From NCBI RefSeq assembly GCF_000378005.1, contig NZ_KB899040.1, forward strand, positions 315,468 through 379,467: a DNA stretch of 64,000 nucleotides, given 5' to 3'. Position numbers and translations under genes: made by a program. Source of the stretch: Coprothermobacter platensis DSM 11748 (GTDB taxonomy: Bacteria > Coprothermobacterota > Coprothermobacteria > Coprothermobacterales > Coprothermobacteraceae). The notes under the pieces were generated by a model. It saw nothing but the letters and a program-made list of their open reading frames with translations. It was not told the DNA's origin and ran no database searches. Shown here in pieces: positions 36,346-63,096 of the stretch (within the stretch, counting starts at the first letter, position 1; each line of letters opens with the position of its first letter).

Positions 36346-36972
36346 ATGATACCTTGGGTTGTTCTTGAAAGGCTTTATCTTTATTATTCTTATGTGGACT
36401 CTCTACCGCCAGAGATAAATTGGGTTTCTTCCCAGATGTTAGGAGAAGCTTTGGGCATATCTCCGGATTTAGTCAGAAAAGACATGACATACTGCGAAAT
36501 AAAAGGAAAACCCAGGCAGGGTTATCCTGTTCCTGAACTAAGGAACTATCTTAAAAAGCTTTTGAAACTGGATACGTCAGTGAATTCGGTTATAGTTGGG
36601 ACAGGTAGACTTGGCTCTGCACTGGCAAACTATGAGGGATTGAAGAAAAGCAACATGCATGTTGTGGGACTGTTCGATACCGATCCGAAAAAAGTTGGCA
36701 CTACGTTGGGTGATCTAACGATCATGCATTTAGGTAAGATGCATGACTTTATTAAAGAAAATGACGTTGTGTGCGGTGTAATAACTGTTCCGGCTCATAG
36801 TGCTCAACAAGTATGCGATCTGTTAGTGGGTGCTGGTGTTAAGGCAATATGGAACTTCGCTCCGGTAGCTCTTAAAGTGCCTGATGGTGTCTATCTGCGG
36901 AGTGAGAACATCGTTCAAGGTTTTGTTCTGCTGCGCATTAGCTTGCTTGAGGCAAACCAACATGGATCGTAA
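36346..36972 (+). CDS. rex: Redox-sensing transcriptional repressor Rex
   Basis: A 208-aa repressor that binds DNA when NADH/NAD+ is low. The N-terminal winged helix has 'WVSSQMLGEALGISPDLVRKD', followed by 'GKPRQGYPVPEL' and a Rossmann domain with 'VIVGTGRLGSAL', then a swapped C-terminal helix. It heads the operon that continues into DUF2148 and the DNA end-processing genes. AAAGGAGG lies about 12 bases upstream of the ATG. I find no convincing Rex operator in the 175 bases before it, which otherwise hold no clear structure. Confidence 0.93.
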   Translation: MIPWVVLERLYLYYSYVDSLPPEINWVSSQMLGEALGISPDLVRKDMTYCEIKGKPRQGYPVPELRNYLKKLLKLDTSVNSVIVGTGRLGSALANYEGLKKSNMHVVGLFDTDPKKVGTTLGDLTIMHLGKMHDFIKENDVVCGVITVPAHSAQQVCDLLVGAGVKAIWNFAPVALKVPDGVYLRSENIVQGFVLLRISLLEANQHGS

Positions 36973-37495
36973 AGAAATAGTTGGCGAAAGTTTACACGTA
37001 TCCGGTGTGCTGGCAGCTCAAAAAATGCTCACTGCGCCGAAGGGTTTAGGTCGTGATAGCATTGACGTCATGCTCATAGAGGATGAAAAAACACTGTCGA
37101 AAATATTGGAAGAGGCAAAACAATTTCAAGAAAAATGGCCATTTTTTGACAGAGACGCTCATACGCTTGAAGGCAAAAAGTTTATGATCCTTTTGGCATT
37201 CGCAGAAGATAAAAAGCCTGCTAACCTCAATTGTGGTTTATGCAAAGCAGACTGCGATGCTGCTCGCGAAGGAAAGACTTTTTGCGTGTTTTCTGCCATG
37301 GATTTGGGCATCGCATTAGGTGTTGCGGTGGATGTATTCAATGATTTTGGTGTAGATAATCGGATACAATGGACTCTTGGTGAAGCTTGTAAAAGCCTTG
37401 GCCTTTGCCCTGAAGGAAGCGTTGCCATTGCCATACCTATGAGCGTAAGCAGTAAAAACATATTCTTTGATAGGCTATGGTGGAACAGGAAGTGA
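36962..37495 (+). CDS. DUF2148 ferredoxin-like domain protein
   Basis: A 177-aa protein with the DUF2148 pattern: N-terminal helix 'LHVSGVLAAQKMLTAPKGLG', a Cys cluster 'NCGLCKADC...TFCVFSAMDLGIALG' with four Cys likely holding an Fe-S cluster, 'VDNRIQWTLGEA', and the C-terminal 'SSKNIFFDR'. The function is unknown; members are found in anaerobes and often near redox genes. It starts at ATG 36962, overlapping the end of rex by 11 bases, so co-regulation by Rex is likely. A long upstream in-frame extension to 36884 would lie within rex and is rejected. Confidence 0.88.
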   Translation: MDRKEIVGESLHVSGVLAAQKMLTAPKGLGRDSIDVMLIEDEKTLSKILEEAKQFQEKWPFFDRDAHTLEGKKFMILLAFAEDKKPANLNCGLCKADCDAAREGKTFCVFSAMDLGIALGVAVDVFNDFGVDNRIQWTLGEACKSLGLCPEGSVAIAIPMSVSSKNIFFDRLWWNRK

Positions 37496-37505
37496 TGATT
37501 CATTT

Positions 37506-38630
37506 ATGAGAGTATTAGTTACTGGCGACTGGCATTTAGGTGCCGTAACATGGAGGCGGAAGCCTCAAGATAGAACACCAGAAATACAAGCGTGCTTGGA
37601 AGAAATCTTGGATTATCTTCGTGAAGAACCAGTGGATCTTATCGCAGTTACAGGTGACTTAACACATTATTGGGTTCCTTTGGAAGGCGAAAAGCAGCAT
37701 TGGCTCATGGACTACCTTTATAAACTATCAGATTTTGCTCCCGTTATAGGTGTGTTGGGTAATCACGATTGGAAGGGTTTGGTAAGTTTTGACAAATTTG
37801 CACGTATAAAGAATGTTTTCATAGTGGATAAGCTTGAGCAACTTAATTTGGATGTAGGTGGAGAAAAGGTATGCATCACGGCGCTACCCTATTTTGATGC
37901 TAGAAAAATTATCACACCTACTGATACCAATACCAGAGAAGTCATGAATGACGCTGTCCAATCGGTACTGGACGAAATTTCTCCGCGTAATTGCAGCGGG
38001 GATTCTACATACCGTTTTTTACTCACGCATGGTGTTGTGGAGGGCATGTCGTATTCAAAGTTTGGTACTAACGAAGTACCCATACCCAGAGTACTGCTAT
38101 CACAGTTCGATTTTACATTTTTGGGGCACATCCATGATGCCAAGCTTATCACAGACAATCATACGCAGAAGATACTGGGATGTTATCCTGGTGGCGTCGC
38201 AAAGCTGGACTTTGGAGAAGAGAGTAGTCAACAGGGTTTTTACATTGTCGACTTCAGCGGTCAAGGTACGAAGACCTATTTTCACCCGTTTATTTCTCAA
38301 AAGAAATTGAAACAGGTTACCGTTATAGGGAGCCCTTCTCCTAAAGTTGTTAGTGATTTAACGACTTTTCAAGGTTACGTGAAAGTAACACTTCAAGAGG
38401 GCGATTTGGTTGCTGTACAAAGGCTGTATGAATTGCCTTCAGTGGTTTCAGTAGAGCTTGAAAGTGTAACAGCGGACGACACAGAAAACAGTAGAGTGAA
38501 GTTTTCATCCATGGAAGAAGCTTACGGACAGTATTTAGAGAAGCAGGAACTTAAATCAGAGCTCAGAGATAAACTGTTAGAAAAATTCTCCAGTTATTTG
38601 CAGAAGGCAAGAGAGGACGATACATTGTGA
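37506..38630 (+). CDS. sbcD: Mre11/SbcD-type nuclease subunit
   Basis: A 374-aa calcineurin-like phosphoesterase, nuclease partner of Rad50/SbcC in DNA double-strand break processing. All five metal motifs are present: 'GDWHLG', 'TGDLTH', 'GNHDW', 'LLTHG' and 'LGHIHDA'. The C-terminal part (about 265-374) carries capping and Rad50-binding regions ending in a Lys/Glu-rich helix. ATG 37506 is used; the longer in-frame frame starting at 37467 overlaps DUF2148. The gene overlaps sbcC by four bases (GTGA). Confidence 0.93.
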   Translation: MRVLVTGDWHLGAVTWRRKPQDRTPEIQACLEEILDYLREEPVDLIAVTGDLTHYWVPLEGEKQHWLMDYLYKLSDFAPVIGVLGNHDWKGLVSFDKFARIKNVFIVDKLEQLNLDVGGEKVCITALPYFDARKIITPTDTNTREVMNDAVQSVLDEISPRNCSGDSTYRFLLTHGVVEGMSYSKFGTNEVPIPRVLLSQFDFTFLGHIHDAKLITDNHTQKILGCYPGGVAKLDFGEESSQQGFYIVDFSGQGTKTYFHPFISQKKLKQVTVIGSPSPKVVSDLTTFQGYVKVTLQEGDLVAVQRLYELPSVVSVELESVTADDTENSRVKFSSMEEAYGQYLEKQELKSELRDKLLEKFSSYLQKAREDDTL

Positions 38631-41548
38631 AACCTGAAAAGTTGGAAGTTACCAATTTCTTGGGTTTAAAAAAGATCTCTTTGACGTTTCCTCCTCAGGG
38701 CGTTTTTGTCATAACGGGACCTAATGGTGCAGGAAAATCTTCCATATTGGAGGCGATTTACTTTGCTCTTTATGGAAAAACAATGAGATTGCCTGGGGAT
38801 GTGAAGAACACTGCCATTATTAATAGAAATGCTCGGCATAGCACTGACAACCCTGCCAGAGCTGAAGTAATTTTTACCTTTTCTCAGCAAGGTCGTAAGT
38901 ACTTAATAAGAAGAGAACTGGAGCGGAACACAAAAAAGGTAGATGATTCTACCCATAATGCATGGTTTTTCGACTTAGATGGTCCCCATGGAGACGTTCC
39001 TGAAACCGGTGTAACAAAAGTTAATAAAAAGATTGAGGACGTCCTTGGTTTGAATCCTGAAGTGTTTGCTTCAACGGTTTTTTTGGGCCAAGGCAGAATA
39101 ACCGATTTAGTAGAGGCGAAACCGGACAAGAGGCGAAAAATTTTTGATTCTATTTTGGAAACGCATAATTTAAGTAAGATGCAAGCACTGGTGCGTGGTG
39201 ATTTGCAGCAAGTTCAAGCTCGGGTGGAATCGCTCACCGAGGAATACAACCAACTTAGGGAAGGACCGTCCGCTGATGAATTACGCCAACAACTGAGCGA
39301 CGTTCTATCCAAAATAGAAGAAATTCGCCGTCAGCTTGAGCAGTTCGAACAGATGTCTAAGCGTTTTGAAGAAATCCATCAGGTTAAGAGTGATATGGAA
39401 AAAACGCAAAACAACATCAACGTGCTGAAGTCGCAGATTGAGGAGCTAAGGTACAAAGCTTATGAGGATGCCAATATTAAACTAGCAAAAGAATTGCGAG
39501 TTAAGTACATTCAATTGGAACAAGACGAAGCGCAGTTTGAACAACTAAAACTGCAAAAACAGGGATTGGAAGAGAATGCAAAACGCTTTGGTGAAATTGC
39601 CGAGAAGCTATCAAAAGACATAGAATCTCTTCACCACCGCCTGGAAGAGTTGGGTGAAGAACAGCAGCTTGAAGATGAACTGTCGTACTTGGAGCATAGT
39701 TTACAAGAACTAAACGCAGCGAGAAGCAAGCTTGATGACGCCTTTAATACATTGATGCAATGCAGAACACTTAGCAGTGAGATGTTGACTTTGCTGGCTG
39801 AGGAAAAAACACTTAAAAAAGATGTTTCTGCCTTGGATAAGCTGCTTCGGTTCCTTGACGAGCGTAGAGGCGTGTTTGAAAAATATTACGAAGCAAAGCA
39901 GGAAATAAAAAAACTCGAAGATGAACGCGCTAAAAACATGGAAGAAGCAAATAAACTGCAGCGAGCATATCAGCAGTTAAACAGTAGAATGCAAACTGTC
40001 AACGCTGAATTTCCCAACGCGGAAAGAGATTTTTTGGTAAGCCGCATAGTGGAAACTTTGAGCCCACAAGATGAGTGCCCTATTTGTGGGAACGAAATCA
40101 CAGAGTTAAAAACCGTTTCTCTTCCTGACGAATTGTTGCTGGAGTTTGGCCAACTGGAAATGCAGAAGTATCATGTGGAACAACAGTTGAAGAAAATCAA
40201 TGAGCACATGGCTGAGTTGGAGAATCGATTGTCTGAATTGCAGGCTGTTGTTTCCAAGTGCCAGGAACATTTTACGCCGAATCTGTCAGCAAGAATAGAG
40301 CGCTTATCATCCGTGGGTGAAATGAACACATGGATAGAGAGCCAAGGTCAAATCTATGGCGATAGGAGAGAACGCTTAGCAGTGGTACAGCAACAGCTTT
40401 ATGCGAGGGGAGTTCAACTAAGAGCGCAGAACGAACGTTTGAAATCGTTATGTTCCAATGTCGAGATAAGATCGGCTCTTCACGAAAACAATCTGCAAGA
40501 TAAGCTTGTTGCTATGGAAAAAAATATAAAAATGACCGAGCAAAAGATAGCCGCCTTATCTAAACAAATAACGGATTTGAAAGAAATGCGGCAAAGCATA
40601 ACGGTGGAGTTGGCTAAACGCGGTGGAGAACTGAACAAAACACAGGAAAGCAAAACTGAGACTGAAAAAGCACTGAAAGAGCTAAATCGCCGCATAGACA
40701 CGATTTTGTCAAGGATAACGGATGAGCGCTCTCTGCTCAAAAATGAACTTTTGGAAAAGGGCCTGACGATGGAGAATTACGAATCGTTAAAGAATCGCGA
40801 TGTTCAGGGCGCAGACGATAAGCTCAAAATGCTCATGGGTAGTTTGGATCAACTTCAAAACGCATTCAATGAAAAACAGGACCAGTATTTATCATTGCTT
40901 GCAGATGTGAAAGAAGAAGGCGACTTGAATTCAGTACAAAGTCAACTTCAGAGTGCCAATGAAACATATAAGCAGTTACTTAAAGAATCTGGTAGCATCG
41001 AGGATGCCATTAAGCATGCTGTGGAAAGGGAACAACGTTTGAAAGAAAAAGAGAATCAACGTGCCTTGCTGGAAGAAGAACTTAGCGTGCTTACGCGTTT
41101 ATGGGAAGACTTAAAAGCTGACCGTTTCCCGGATTTTTACCGTGGTGAGATGATGAATGAAATTGTGACTTCTGCTTCTAACCTGCTTTGGGAGATGAGT
41201 GGCGGGCAGTTTAATCTCATTTTTGATTCTGATTCTTTTCGCTTTGATGTTGTATTTGACGACGGTTTGACTTCTGACATAAGTAATCTAAGTGGCGGCG
41301 AGAAAGTGCTTGTAGCATTGTCATTGGCATTCGCCATTAGTCAACATTTTGCTGGTTCTTTAGAATCTATTTTTCTTGATGAAGGTTTAGCGTGGTTGGA
41401 TAAAGAAAACAACACGAAGTTAGCTCAGTACTTGCAGAATATGGAAAATAGCTCTATGGTTGTGGGCATAGTAACGCATTCAGAAGAGTTCGCGATAAAC
41501 TTTCAGCGTAGACTTTATGTGAATGGGGGCACAGCGCAGTGGACATAA
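38627..41548 (+). CDS. sbcC: Rad50/SbcC-type SMC-like ATPase
   Basis: A 973-aa SMC-family ATPase. Walker A 'GPNGAGKSSILEAIY' lies near residue 31, followed by the Q-loop 'VFLGQGRI'; two long coiled coils meet at a single zinc hook 'CPICGNEI' (Cys484 and Cys487); the C-terminal lobe has the signature 'LSGGEKVLVALSLAFA' (about 887) and Walker B 'SIFLDEGLAWLD' (about 914). It is the length of archaeal Rad50, slightly short for SbcC. GTG 38627 is the start, overlapping the sbcD stop. The nurA gene begins 10 bases before its end. Confidence 0.95.
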   Translation: MKPEKLEVTNFLGLKKISLTFPPQGVFVITGPNGAGKSSILEAIYFALYGKTMRLPGDVKNTAIINRNARHSTDNPARAEVIFTFSQQGRKYLIRRELERNTKKVDDSTHNAWFFDLDGPHGDVPETGVTKVNKKIEDVLGLNPEVFASTVFLGQGRITDLVEAKPDKRRKIFDSILETHNLSKMQALVRGDLQQVQARVESLTEEYNQLREGPSADELRQQLSDVLSKIEEIRRQLEQFEQMSKRFEEIHQVKSDMEKTQNNINVLKSQIEELRYKAYEDANIKLAKELRVKYIQLEQDEAQFEQLKLQKQGLEENAKRFGEIAEKLSKDIESLHHRLEELGEEQQLEDELSYLEHSLQELNAARSKLDDAFNTLMQCRTLSSEMLTLLAEEKTLKKDVSALDKLLRFLDERRGVFEKYYEAKQEIKKLEDERAKNMEEANKLQRAYQQLNSRMQTVNAEFPNAERDFLVSRIVETLSPQDECPICGNEITELKTVSLPDELLLEFGQLEMQKYHVEQQLKKINEHMAELENRLSELQAVVSKCQEHFTPNLSARIERLSSVGEMNTWIESQGQIYGDRRERLAVVQQQLYARGVQLRAQNERLKSLCSNVEIRSALHENNLQDKLVAMEKNIKMTEQKIAALSKQITDLKEMRQSITVELAKRGGELNKTQESKTETEKALKELNRRIDTILSRITDERSLLKNELLEKGLTMENYESLKNRDVQGADDKLKMLMGSLDQLQNAFNEKQDQYLSLLADVKEEGDLNSVQSQLQSANETYKQLLKESGSIEDAIKHAVEREQRLKEKENQRALLEEELSVLTRLWEDLKADRFPDFYRGEMMNEIVTSASNLLWEMSGGQFNLIFDSDSFRFDVVFDDGLTSDISNLSGGEKVLVALSLAFAISQHFAGSLESIFLDEGLAWLDKENNTKLAQYLQNMENSSMVVGIVTHSEEFAINFQRRLYVNGGTAQWT

Positions 41549-42573
41549 CATTCAAAAAAGAAACGCTGAGTATGTGCAAGGATTTGTCTTTGCAGAGGGG
41601 TGTGGAGCACTCTTCTTATGACAATGATTACTCCACGTTCGCTAATGTGGAACCGCTGCCAGAAGATTTTGGCGGATTAAACGTTGTCAGCTACACGCCG
41701 CTCTCTCCTTCTTTGATAGAACGTTGTGAAATTGATCAATTGGAGAGCCGCATAGCCATAGTAGACGGTGTGCAAATGACCATGCTCCGTAAAATCCAAC
41801 GTAACGGTATGTGGGCTTATTTGGTGGGATTGGCAGCGGGAGCAGTGGAAATTTGGCCTTCACGTGATCTTATCCCCTCTACTATAAAGCGCGAGTTGGT
41901 ACTGTTTGTGCCCAAAGAAAATTTAACACTGCCTTTTGACGATTCTTACGGCAATATACGTTTTAGAACGGTGCCTTATGAGCCAGAAAATGAACGTAGA
42001 CAGCTCAACAGCGTTGTCAGTGATACCCGCTCACAGCTTGAGATAGATGCTTTGAACCAAGCCGTAGCGGATTTCAATGGCGAAGGATTATTGCTCAGAG
42101 ATGGTAGGCTCACCTATGGGGATCCCATGACCAGGTTTAATGGCCCAGTGGGACTTGTAAAAACGTTGGAGCCTCGAAGTAATGTGAGTGTTTTCAGTAA
42201 CTACGTACAAAGGTTGAATTTTGGCGAGGTAAGCTGCTTAATAGAGACAGAGAACAAGAACGAAGAGGACGGTAGCGGAATCAGAAGGTATTTTGCTTAT
42301 TTACGGATTATGGATGTGGGAGACCCTGAATCGCTGGAGGGTATCGTTCGGCTGGATTTCACGGGGAAAGCAGATATTGGTAGTTCCTTGGCAGACGTTG
42401 CTCTTCGAGCTGCAAAAGTAGTGTTTTCTCTATCAGTGGAAGGCCCTTATCCACGGTCTCCTTACAACCTGTTGACCATAAACTGGTTAGAAAACAGGTT
42501 GAGGTCTCTGCTGCCGGATCCCATGGTTGTAAGTTTGGATATTGCCCGGGAGGTGAACAGGTTTGGAAGCTAA
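41539..42573 (+). CDS. nurA: NurA domain nuclease
   Basis: A 344-aa protein. The NurA family is a 5'-3' nuclease that works with the HerA translocase in archaeal DNA end resection. Two acidic metal-site positions in beta strands are visible: 'RIAIVDGVQ' (Asp76) and 'GLLLRDGRL' (Asp188), and the C terminus has 'YPRSPYNLLTINWLEN', which resembles the conserved terminal motif. Lying between Rad50-like and HerA-like genes makes the assignment strong. GTG 41539 is the start, inside the sbcC 3' end. Confidence 0.82.
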   Translation: MDITFKKETLSMCKDLSLQRGVEHSSYDNDYSTFANVEPLPEDFGGLNVVSYTPLSPSLIERCEIDQLESRIAIVDGVQMTMLRKIQRNGMWAYLVGLAAGAVEIWPSRDLIPSTIKRELVLFVPKENLTLPFDDSYGNIRFRTVPYEPENERRQLNSVVSDTRSQLEIDALNQAVADFNGEGLLLRDGRLTYGDPMTRFNGPVGLVKTLEPRSNVSVFSNYVQRLNFGEVSCLIETENKNEEDGSGIRRYFAYLRIMDVGDPESLEGIVRLDFTGKADIGSSLADVALRAAKVVFSLSVEGPYPRSPYNLLTINWLENRLRSLLPDPMVVSLDIAREVNRFGS

Positions 42574-44647
42574 TAATCCTGTAGGTATTGTTTCTGGTTT
42601 AGAAAAGAATACACCGACAGAATTCTTCGTAAATCTCTTTTCAGAAGATGGCCAAAGCATAAAAGTGCGCATTGGCGATGTCATACGTGTGAGCGTCTTC
42701 TACAACGGTCAGGAAGTAACGTATTACGGAACTGTTTATGATATTGTTAGCCGCTGGGATAGTGATGTGGACTCAGGGTTTAAGGAAAAAGCTGTGTTTG
42801 AAAAACTCGTCCCGGGAACACGTTTTTACGTGGCTGCAGTTGCGGTGACTCGGGCATGTTATAGTGCTCAAGAAGTTTTTGATGAACCTCTTTCTGTGCC
42901 AGCACCAGGCACACCAGCTTTTCTCGTTACTGAGAAGGAAGAAGTAGAAAAAGCGCTGCGCTTTGACGAGCTTAAGAAACGTGGGTCTCACTTACCCGTG
43001 GGTGTGATGATAAATGGGCAACCTGCTTACGTTGATTTAGGGTTTATACTCGGTGAGAATGGTGCGCACATAAACATAAGTGGGCAATCCGGCGTGGCTG
43101 CAAAAACCAGTTATGCGACATTCCTCATGGCTGCAATGATTCAGAGAGGCAGAGACACAGGCAGATATGCTAATGCGTTACGGCAAGGACGTTACATCGT
43201 TTTTAATATGAAGGGTGAAAGCTTGTTCTTCTTGGACTGTGACAGCGAAGATTGGCTAAAAGCTGACGCTCATGACAGGGAAATGTGGATGACTATGTAC
43301 GAGTCCATGGGACTTGATCCTGAGTGGAAATTTCCTTTAGATAACATTGTTTACTTAGGCGTGGCTGAGGGGTTGGGCGGCGCAAAGCTAAAAAAACCAG
43401 ATATAAAATCGAGAACCAAGGCTGAAGGACACTTAAGAGTTTATGGATGGGATTTCATAGATATCATACGATATCGTTTGCTGGAACTTGCGCTGGATGA
43501 AGAAGAAATGTCTCTAAGTCAGAATATGCAATTACTTTTGTTCAGCATACAAGAGAAAATGGAAGAATTGTTAGAACAGTTGGCTATGGATGTTGAAAGA
43601 GTATTCAATGAAAGAAATAGCGGCGTAAACACAGCTTTCTATAAAGACGAAGAAAAACTCAACGCCGAGGATACTGAAGAAAACAGCGATGAAGACTCAG
43701 AGGATGTTCTGGAATTACTTAGAAAAGCAAAAAGTAACATAAAATGCTCTGTACCTGAAGACCCTTACGAGCGTTTGCGCTTGGTACTGTACGCCAGCAA
43801 TGTGGAACCAAGAAAAATCCTACAAAAATACGGAATACCGGAAACCGTTGATGATTTAACCAACTACTTGAGAAAAGCAGCCTTAGGAGAAAAAGCTGAC
43901 GTAAAAGCAGATGAAATGCATGCAGTGGAAGAATGGCGTAAAGCCATTTTCGAAAACGAACTTGGTACAGCTACGGTTTTTGCTTTTGTGAGACGTCTGA
44001 AATTGGCTAGAAAAGAGGGCTTATCGAAGCTTTGGCGTGAATTGCCTTACGGTTTAAGTGGCGATGTAGAAAATTTACCTGACGAAGAATTCGAATATAA
44101 CGTTGGGCGCTCATGGGACCGTTCTGGTGGCATTACCGTAATAGACTTATCCAAGCTTCACTCTTCCATGCAAACATTTGTGGTGGGGGCCGTTCTTAGG
44201 CAGGTCATGGAAGCAAAAATGGCGAACCCATTAGCTACTGAACAGCCTGTATTCATTTTCTTGGACGAGCTTAATAAGTACGCTCCCCGAGCGGAAGGCG
44301 GTGCCATGGTCAAATTATTCCGCGATGTGGCTGAGCGCGGTAGGTCTTTCGGTGTGGTTTTGGTAGGTGCTGAACAAACGGCATCTCAGGTTGATTTCCG
44401 TGTTGTTACACAGAGTTCTACCACCATTGTGGGGCATCAGAAGGCGGCAGAGTTAAACCATGATGAGTATAAGCATTTACTCGACAGGCAACGTGAGATG
44501 GCTTCTTCAGTAGGACCAGGAGTGGTGTTTATTGACCAACCATTCCTACGTGTTCCCATCATGGTTAAGTTCCCTATGACCAGATGGTCTACCAAGGAGA
44601 CAAAGGTTTCAAATGAGGGCGGTAGGCTCAAGAGGATTTTAGGATAA
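42563..44647 (+). CDS. herA: HerA-type hexameric DNA translocase (DUF87/FtsK-HerA superfamily)
   Basis: A 694-aa ATPase. An N-terminal HAS-barrel-like beta domain (about 1-110) is followed by a RecA-like core with Walker A in variant form 'GQSGVAAKTS' (about 174-183; the usual form is GxxGxGKS) and Walker B 'VFIFLDELNKYAP' (about 563), then 'LFRDVAERGRSFG' and an arginine-finger-like 'QSSTTIVGH'. An inserted acidic region (about 366-390, Glu/Asp/Asn-rich) is unusual for archaeal HerA. HerA pumps DNA and drives NurA for end resection. The start is TTG 42563 after GGGAGGTGA, overlapping nurA. Confidence 0.85.
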   Translation: MEANNPVGIVSGLEKNTPTEFFVNLFSEDGQSIKVRIGDVIRVSVFYNGQEVTYYGTVYDIVSRWDSDVDSGFKEKAVFEKLVPGTRFYVAAVAVTRACYSAQEVFDEPLSVPAPGTPAFLVTEKEEVEKALRFDELKKRGSHLPVGVMINGQPAYVDLGFILGENGAHINISGQSGVAAKTSYATFLMAAMIQRGRDTGRYANALRQGRYIVFNMKGESLFFLDCDSEDWLKADAHDREMWMTMYESMGLDPEWKFPLDNIVYLGVAEGLGGAKLKKPDIKSRTKAEGHLRVYGWDFIDIIRYRLLELALDEEEMSLSQNMQLLLFSIQEKMEELLEQLAMDVERVFNERNSGVNTAFYKDEEKLNAEDTEENSDEDSEDVLELLRKAKSNIKCSVPEDPYERLRLVLYASNVEPRKILQKYGIPETVDDLTNYLRKAALGEKADVKADEMHAVEEWRKAIFENELGTATVFAFVRRLKLARKEGLSKLWRELPYGLSGDVENLPDEEFEYNVGRSWDRSGGITVIDLSKLHSSMQTFVVGAVLRQVMEAKMANPLATEQPVFIFLDELNKYAPRAEGGAMVKLFRDVAERGRSFGVVLVGAEQTASQVDFRVVTQSSTTIVGHQKAAELNHDEYKHLLDRQREMASSVGPGVVFIDQPFLRVPIMVKFPMTRWSTKETKVSNEGGRLKRILG

Positions 44648-44689
44648 GCAGGAATCATTACAAATTACAAAGAGGAGAGTGAAATAAGC

Positions 44690-45160
44690 ATGAAAGCAGA
44701 CCTTCACATAGAGCTGGTTAAAGAAGTTCCTGAGCCGCAAAAAGTGACCAATTGGAATGATTTTTTGGATGGTGCTGAAACCTTTATGAGCGCGGTAGAG
44801 TCCAAATTTGAAGAAGAAGGCCTTTATTTTAGTGCTGAGATACGTTTGTATTCTGGAATGGAAGCAGGCGATTTGATAATGGCCTCCACACTATATGATG
44901 TGGATATAACAAAGGCTAAAGATATTGTGTTAGCCTTGGAAAGTTGGACCAAGGAAAATGGGTTTACCCTTGGAGAGGTATCCCTGGAATTTGGTCAAGA
45001 ACAAGATGTGTCTGCTAAACTCAATATCGGTCGACTTTTATCTGAGAATGGCTCGAAGATGGAAATAGAGAAAGGAAAAGTAGCATTAGTTTTTATACCT
45101 GCTTCACTTAAGGATTTTGATGAACTGTTTTCTCTGGTGATAAAGGACCTGACTGATTGA
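44690..45160 (+). CDS. Orphan protein after herA
   Basis: A 156-aa acidic, probably cytoplasmic protein with no signal, membrane segment or Cys. The pattern is alternating helix and beta: 'WNDFLDGAETFMSAVESKFEEEG', 'SAEIRLYSGME', 'KAKDIVLALESWTKENG' and 'SAKLNIGRLL'. I recognise no family. It has a good AGAGGAGAG Shine-Dalgarno about 8 bases before the ATG and lies 42 bases after herA on the same strand, so it is likely in that operon. It might be a partner of the resection machinery or an unrelated tail gene. Confidence 0.6.
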   Translation: MKADLHIELVKEVPEPQKVTNWNDFLDGAETFMSAVESKFEEEGLYFSAEIRLYSGMEAGDLIMASTLYDVDITKAKDIVLALESWTKENGFTLGEVSLEFGQEQDVSAKLNIGRLLSENGSKMEIEKGKVALVFIPASLKDFDELFSLVIKDLTD

Positions 45161-45168
45161 ATAGCAGT

Positions 45169-45726
45169 TTACGGAGCAGTTATGACCTTTTGTATTACGT
45201 TAGAAACGCCTTTCCCGTCGCTATCAACTGCATACACACGCAGGTTCATGGTTCCTTTAGCCTCGCCGGAAAGGCGTGTAAATTTATAACTGAATGTGCC
45301 ATTGAAGTCTGTGCGTAAAACCATTATCAATCTATTACCATCCCAGAAAGTGACGTAATAAGCACCTGCTTTGTTGTTTTTTGTCACTTTTCCGCTAAAA
45401 ACAACCCAATCTGCTTTTAATGTATCCGCTGTGGGATAACTCAGTTGCAAGGTGAGGGTTTGAGATGCCGTTGTCGCTTGATCTGGGGTAGGAAATCCAT
45501 AAGAAAGCATGCCTGTGGGAGTAGTTGTATTCCCCGTTGGGGAAGTGGCAGTGCAAACTTCCTTCACGACCGTAGTGGTTTGAACTACCGTTTTTGGTAT
45601 GCAACTTTGACTTTCTATGGCCGGTTTACCGGCCAAGATAAGAAGTGCTCCTAAAAACAAACCGATTGCAAAAAGCAGAATACCTGAGACACTTCTCCTG
45701 TTTTGAGGCCTTTCAGGATAGTACAT
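45169..45726 (-). CDS. Orphan membrane-anchored protein with Ig-like domain
   Basis: A 185-aa protein with basic residues, then a transmembrane helix (about 15-33), a Thr/Pro/Val-rich linker, and a C-terminal beta-rich domain of about 95 residues ('WVVFSGKVTKNN', 'TFSYKFTRLSG', 'RVYAVDSDGKGVSN') that looks like an Ig or fibronectin fold. It is exposed outside the membrane. The start at 45726 has no Shine-Dalgarno, but TAAAAT sits so that transcription would begin one base before the ATG. It converges with the previous gene and diverges from rdgB. Confidence 0.6.
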   Translation of the reverse strand: MYYPERPQNRRSVSGILLFAIGLFLGALLILAGKPAIESQSCIPKTVVQTTTVVKEVCTATSPTGNTTTPTGMLSYGFPTPDQATTASQTLTLQLSYPTADTLKADWVVFSGKVTKNNKAGAYYVTFWDGNRLIMVLRTDFNGTFSYKFTRLSGEAKGTMNLRVYAVDSDGKGVSNVIQKVITAP

Positions 45727-62722: not shown

Positions 62723-62730
62723 TTTATATT

Positions 62731-63096
62731 AGTGAGCAGACAATAAGCCGAGTTCTGTCTCCACCAAGAATTGGTGGATGGCAACCATTTCTCTGGGCGC
62801 ACTGTTGCCAATACGCTCAAGCGGCCTACCCGCCAGCTCGCCGAGCAGGGTCTCAGCTGGCTGCTTGGCCTTGCACCGGATGGGGTTTACCATGCCAGCA
62901 CTGTCACCAGTACTGCGGTGGGCTCTTACCCCACCTTTTCACCCTTGCCAACTATTCCCCGATGGGGAATAGCGGCGGTTTGTTTTCTGTGGCACTGTCC
63001 TTGAGGTCGCCCTCACTGGGAGTTACCCAGCATCCCGCTCTGTGGAGCTCGGACTTTCCTCAGTCTCTATTTGACTGCGGTTGCCTCGTCTGCTCT
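62731..63096 (-). ncRNA. rnpB: RNase P RNA
   Basis: About 366 bases on the minus strand. Near the 5' end is AGGAAAGTCCGAGCTCC (the universal P3/P4 region), and near the 3' end the ACAGAACTCGGCTTAT segment (P4/J complementary side). The ends pair as P1: GAGCAGAC (63095-63088) with GTCTGCTC (62741-62734). The RNA is the catalytic part of RNase P that matures tRNA 5' ends. Its first 74 bases overlap the 3' end of the rsfS coding sequence on the same strand, and it is followed by a strong terminator. Confidence 0.95.

Follow-up and report, generated by a model that had tools for sequence, protein, structure and literature searches.

A bacterial-type Mre11-Rad50-NurA-HerA operon predicted to process DNA breaks in Coprothermobacter platensis

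Background and main finding

Coprothermobacter platensis DSM 11748 carries the genes for Mre11, Rad50, NurA and HerA in one overlapping series, which we read, with a probability of about 0.88, as a bacterial-type operon for DNA double-strand-break end resection combining Mre11-Rad50 with HerA-NurA. Here, we describe this locus within a 64,000-nucleotide stretch of contig NZ_KB899040.1 (positions 315,468 to 379,467, hereafter the window), which belongs to a genome of 1.42 Mb in two contigs. Judged from profile comparisons and predicted folds, the operon is a bacterial-type set for processing DNA breaks and not one borrowed from archaea. The direct observations are the identity and bacterial-type affinity of the genes, the preservation of their catalytic residues, their conserved synteny and the lack of matches to alternatives. 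A bacterial four-gene resection operon is already known, and of interest here are its apparent status as the only machine of this kind in the organism and an unexplained small gene that accompanies it.

In the proposed mechanism, Mre11-Rad50 would recognise and open ends that are blocked or form hairpins, after which a hexamer of HerA would pump the duplex through its own ring into a NurA dimer, and this dimer would degrade the 5' strand to leave a 3' tail, which RecFOR/RecA would use for homologous recombination. Complex formation, polarity and the hand-off from Mre11-Rad50 to HerA-NurA are here inferred from the biochemistry of Deinococcus radiodurans and archaea, and would operate in Coprothermobacter by analogy.

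Gene content and synteny

All four open reading frames lie on the plus strand where the original prediction had placed them, with overlaps of 4 nt between mre11 and rad50 (38627-38630), 10 nt between rad50 and nurA (41539-41548) and 11 nt between nurA and herA (42563-42573). The claim that they form one directon encoding all four components held, as every component was identified by profiles or fold, while the description of the interval 37506-45160 as a four-gene operon was incomplete, since a fifth conserved gene, encoding a 156-aa protein (44690-45160, plus strand), also lies inside it. The directon starts with rex (36346-36972, plus strand; NCBIfam Rex 1.2e-76; syntenic in L005, L006 and L007), encoding a redox-sensing repressor, and continues with a gene for a DUF2148 ferredoxin-domain protein of 177 aa (36962-37495, plus strand; Pfam DUF2148 3e-28; 67-81% identity in the same place in three relatives), whose inferred start, an ATG that overlaps rex at its end, gives the same length as in the relatives. 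From there it runs through mre11, rad50, nurA and herA to the 156-aa gene with no gap above 42 nt, and it ends at 45160, leaving 8 nt to a convergent gene (45169-45726). Elsewhere in the window, a bacterial RNase P RNA (class A) is found on the minus strand at 62729-63096 (308 bits).

Three other Coprothermobacteraceae genomes (G001, G003 and G004) share the block, with synteny extending from rex through the 156-aa gene, and the arrangement is therefore not due to chance; the four genomes represent two genera including that of the window, and the shared neighbours of the locus are valS, rex and a uridine-kinase-like gene. In all four genomes where the region was read, rex and the DUF2148 gene stand immediately next to the repair genes, a conserved linkage that suggests co-transcription. 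Redox control by Rex, the further proposal, is a conjecture: the linkage of rex, DUF2148 and mre11 is conserved within the family, but of two Rex-operator consensus patterns one matched the window once and the other 11 times, which does not exceed chance, and no match to either lies upstream of rex. Scans for promoters and terminators likewise gave no more sites than shuffled sequences.

Protein families and catalytic residues

Mre11 and Rad50 both have clear Pfam and NCBIfam matches and show the hallmarks of Mre11-Rad50 (SbcCD), a metallophosphoesterase and a split ABC ATPase with a zinc hook. For the nuclease gene mre11/sbcD (37506-38630, plus strand; Metallophos 2.3e-14) and the ATPase gene rad50/sbcC (38627-41548, plus strand; AAA_23 3.2e-23, SbcC_Walker_B 6.8e-8, zinc-hook motif CPICG), the closest solved relatives are the Thermotoga maritima proteins (3QG5), at 6.9e-37 and 8e-47, respectively.

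The third gene, nurA (41539-42573, plus strand), encodes a protein that the Pfam NurA model (PF09376) matched neither in a search with the protein itself nor in a whole-genome search. A profile built from five relatives nevertheless matched T. maritima NurA (1ZUP, TM1739; 3e-17), its closest solved relative, and D. radiodurans NurA (7F6D; 7.5e-11), and recovered no archaeal NurA at E up to 1. As this profile search against the PDB succeeded, we take the Pfam miss as limited sensitivity of the model, since a match to Pfam is a matter of detection and does not define the enzyme; a relative from the same phylum (L015) passes the Pfam model with 22 bits against a cut-off of 21. That the protein might not be a NurA at all was considered on account of the Pfam silence and ruled out by the profile matches to solved NurA structures. 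In an alignment of 60 relatives, the RNase H-like catalytic acids D76, E168 and D188 never vary, nor does K208, among sequences with a residue at the position, and 59 of the 60 have R306. Once a 20-residue tag offset is assumed, the profile alignment pairs D76 with D53, K208 with K201 and R306 with R309 of D. radiodurans NurA, and each of these D. radiodurans residues was found essential by mutagenesis (PMC9960219). The catalytic acids, lysine and arginine of the D. radiodurans enzyme are thus conserved in Coprothermobacter NurA.

The gene herA (42563-44647, plus strand) encodes a predicted bacterial-type hexameric dsDNA translocase. Single-sequence hmmscan gave weak results (DUF87 below the cut-off, PADLOC HerA at 5e-13), and a HerA profile matched D. 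radiodurans HerA at 1.1e-88 as against 4.2e-5 for Sulfolobus HerA. The AlphaFold model (pLDDT 86) matched D. radiodurans HerA (7WRW) at 1.3e-44 with a TM score of 0.81 on the target, and archaeal and defence HerA proteins followed at 1.6e-21 or weaker. The original prediction had depended on profile searches placing 41539-42573 in NurA and 42563-44647 in HerA; the first placement fails with Pfam and succeeds with the relatives' profile, and the second is secured by profile (1e-88) and fold (1.3e-44) matches to D. radiodurans.

HerA combines a HAS-barrel with a RecA-like ATPase bearing a Walker A lysine and a Walker B D/E pair, and shares its subfamily, the Walker A form GVA(T/A)KTS and Walker B with the D. 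radiodurans NurA-HerA structures (7F6D, 7WRW, 7WRX). Its Walker A motif, GQSGVAAKTS (residues 174-183; 43082-43111, plus strand), was located in an 85-sequence alignment, across which the family-wide form is G..G(V/I)A(T/A/S)KT; K181/T182 align with D. radiodurans K175/T176, which have been seen binding ADP and Mg (PMC9960219). We considered whether this degenerate-looking motif indicates a dead ATPase and rejected the idea, as the form is family-wide in the 85 sequences and D. radiodurans HerA, with a similar motif, is active. Walker B (D568/E569; 44264-44269, plus strand) is equivalent to D. radiodurans D487/E488 in the profile alignment and is kept in 84-85 of 85 relatives, and R576 conserves the pore arginine R495. 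In D. radiodurans HerA, K175, D487/E488, R495 and R552 are essential by mutagenesis (PMC9960219). Two substitutions, both present in Coprothermobacteraceae HerA, count against the resection reading as judged from the alignment: the essential pore and DNA-contact residue R552 is H633 here (an R or K stands here in 65 of the 84 relatives in which the position is occupied), and D220, called catalytic in D. radiodurans, is S220, with the neighbouring E219 kept. As the residues essential in D. radiodurans are mostly conserved, with the HerA DNA-contact arginine replaced by histidine, the known end-resection mechanism most likely applies here.

HerA also has an enlarged helical domain (residues about 320-490; 43520-44032, plus strand), delimited by Walker spacing and predicted structure. 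Between its Walker A and Walker B lie 394 residues; this spacing has a median of 274 across the 65 relatives where it could be measured and is 366-378 in other Coprothermobacteraceae. The helix bundle exceeds the family median by about 120 residues and differs in this from the D. radiodurans protein. The added segment is predicted to be helical, with high confidence except at about 351-380. Its position would make it part of the helix bundle regarded as the putative substrate entrance in D. radiodurans HerA (PMC9960219).

The fifth gene, an extra one in comparison with the D. radiodurans system, begins 42 nt past herA, is the last in the directon and stands directly downstream of herA wherever the region was read. 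Its 156-aa product was found in genomes G000-G004 only (48-75% identity in G001-G004), the sister-family genome G005 giving one non-significant match. Together with the longer HerA helix bundle, this gene is particular to Coprothermobacteraceae. Profile searches gave no family match for the protein, and a PHROGs search returned nothing. The AlphaFold model (pLDDT 89, pTM 0.84) mixes strands and helices, and a fold search against the PDB and viral structures gave no convincing match (TM at most 0.53). The candidates considered, namely ACT-like regulatory domains, archaeal SerRS, KH pairs and SAM lyase, were all poor, and no function was assigned. Linkage by itself suggests an accessory role.

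Other resection genes in the genome

The search for addA/addB or recBCD that had been proposed alongside the original prediction agreed with it: profile searches, which could miss divergent enzymes, recognised neither an AddA/RecB-type nuclease nor RecJ or RecQ in the window genome or in the one-contig genome G001 of the same genus. In both genomes, PDDEXK_1, used as a stand-in model for AddB, occurs once, in a protein of 292-300 aa, and UvrD_C occurs once, in a UvrD of 660-682 aa within whose frame all AddA-model matches fall. The RecJ model gave no match in Coprothermobacteraceae and matched 13 of 14 controls, while matches to the RecQ model were weak, partial and confined to the helicase domain; RecR is present in both genomes. 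The only clear Mre11-type nuclease found is the one encoded in this operon. With no recognisable AddAB/RecBCD, RecJ or RecQ found, the organism probably has in this operon its main or sole dedicated machinery for resection. In two draft genomes from a sister family of the same order (G005 and G006), no Mre11, NurA or HerA was found with the queries used, nor any AddA-type or clear RecJ match.

A bolder version, in which the operon has wholly replaced AddAB/RecBCD together with RecJ/RecQ in Coprothermobacteraceae, and the 156-aa protein acts alongside the enlarged HerA entrance domain as a fifth subunit specific to the lineage, is tentative and in our estimate rather doubtful.

Distribution and alternative roles

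The expectation that the four-gene arrangement is unusual in bacteria was not borne out. Genome contigs were scanned with the HerA alignment, yielding 80 loci whose flanks were annotated by profiles, and all four genes occur together in 41 of 85 HerA loci from several bacterial phyla, counts that reflect selection of loci by HerA motifs and not prevalence and that include several doubtful MAG labels. The carriers are labelled Actinomycetota, Chloroflexota, Acidobacteriota, Cyanobacteriota, Binatota, Spirochaetota, Myxococcota and others. Their arrangements, all cyclic permutations of nurA-herA-mre11-rad50, are this order itself (32 loci), mre11-rad50-nurA-herA (6 loci; Coprothermobacteraceae, L060 and L061) and herA-mre11-rad50-nurA (3 loci; L027, L037 and L047). 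Although L060 and L061 are MAG contigs labelled Coprothermobacterota, their HerA groups with Cryosericota/Caldisericota and not with the window family, which may reflect a wrong label or gene exchange. A further MAG contig (L065), labelled "Klebsiella pneumoniae", carries nurA-herA-mre11-rad50 and groups with Binatota, and is almost certainly a mislabelled bin.

The archaeal operon of Sulfolobus, Pyrococcus and Thermococcus, which clusters the same four functions, has the order herA-mre11-rad50-nurA, which we take to be the same cyclic order as in Coprothermobacter. A bacterial cluster of the same four gene families, nurA-herA-sbcD-sbcC, was published earlier from Oceanithermus profundus by authors who noted its similarity to archaea (PMC5448004); sbcD and sbcC there lie downstream of herA, unlike the Coprothermobacter order mre11-rad50-nurA-herA.

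The recurrence of this linkage in many phyla, in three cyclically permuted arrangements, argues against an alternative that we consider unlikely, namely that Mre11-Rad50 (in SbcCD-like hairpin cutting) and NurA-HerA (in DNA-end or DNA turnover) share an operon and act separately. Separate action would agree with the Thermotogota genomes examined, where herA and nurA are unlinked (nurA is present in five of the seven searched and never adjoins herA), and with most Deinococcota loci, which have nurA-herA with no mre11-rad50 alongside; against it, Sulfolobus Mre11 is reported to interact with HerA (PMC2288612). Against the resection reading itself, strains of D. radiodurans or Thermus deleted for either nurA or herA show mild or even improved DNA-damage resistance (PMC9960219), and the role of these proteins in resection in vivo is therefore debated.

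That HerA with nuclease partners also appears in phage defence had been raised as well, and a HerA-plus-nuclease anti-phage system in place of housekeeping repair is very improbable for this locus. PADLOC HerA and LmuB models do match parts of HerA and Rad50, and the fold search returned structures of known defence systems in which HerA ATPases are paired with SIR2 or DUF4297. The best HerA match, however, is the repair-type D. radiodurans protein, and no SIR2 or DUF4297 gene adjoins herA, whose neighbours are rex, DUF2148, mre11, rad50, nurA and the 156-aa gene. The synteny in four genomes beside housekeeping neighbours, with valS, rex and the uridine-kinase-like gene among them, is unlike a mobile defence island, and the operon supplies the only clear Mre11-type nuclease found.

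As to ancestry, the label "archaeal-style" did not survive: for each of the four proteins, the nearest relative with a solved structure is bacterial, and profile, solved-structure and fold comparisons found none closer to archaeal than to bacterial homologues. In quick tree searches with long branches, HerA of Coprothermobacteraceae joins that of bacterium 42_11 (SH-aLRT 96) on the Thermotogota side, and the NurA tree agrees weakly (support 82). As nurA and herA are unlinked in the Thermotogota genomes examined, and bacterium 42_11 has them adjacent, the closest relatives of the Coprothermobacter set mostly lack the full four-gene cluster, and the Coprothermobacter operon may be either ancestral or reassembled. 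Acquisition of the operon from archaea, which its gene content (that of the operon of thermophilic archaea), the probable thermophily of the organism and the described archaeal origin of Thermus HerA (PMC5448004) would favour, is very improbable, given the HerA profile (1e-88 against 4e-5 for Sulfolobus) and fold (1e-44 against 1.6e-21 for the best archaeal match) comparisons, an archaeal HerA identity of about 12% in the fold alignment, the undetected archaeal NurA, the T. maritima affinity of Mre11 and Rad50, and trees grouping HerA and NurA with Thermotogota and bacterium 42_11. An ancient transfer from archaea into bacteria as a whole may have taken place.

Significance

To see an archaeal peculiarity in the four-gene resection operon is tempting but wrong, as it recurs in many bacterial phyla with its gene order cyclically permuted. 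Since no other resection nuclease was found, Coprothermobacter provides a clean natural setting in which to ask whether Mre11-Rad50 and NurA-HerA together can carry bacterial resection alone, and the 156-aa gene is a concrete candidate for an accessory factor.
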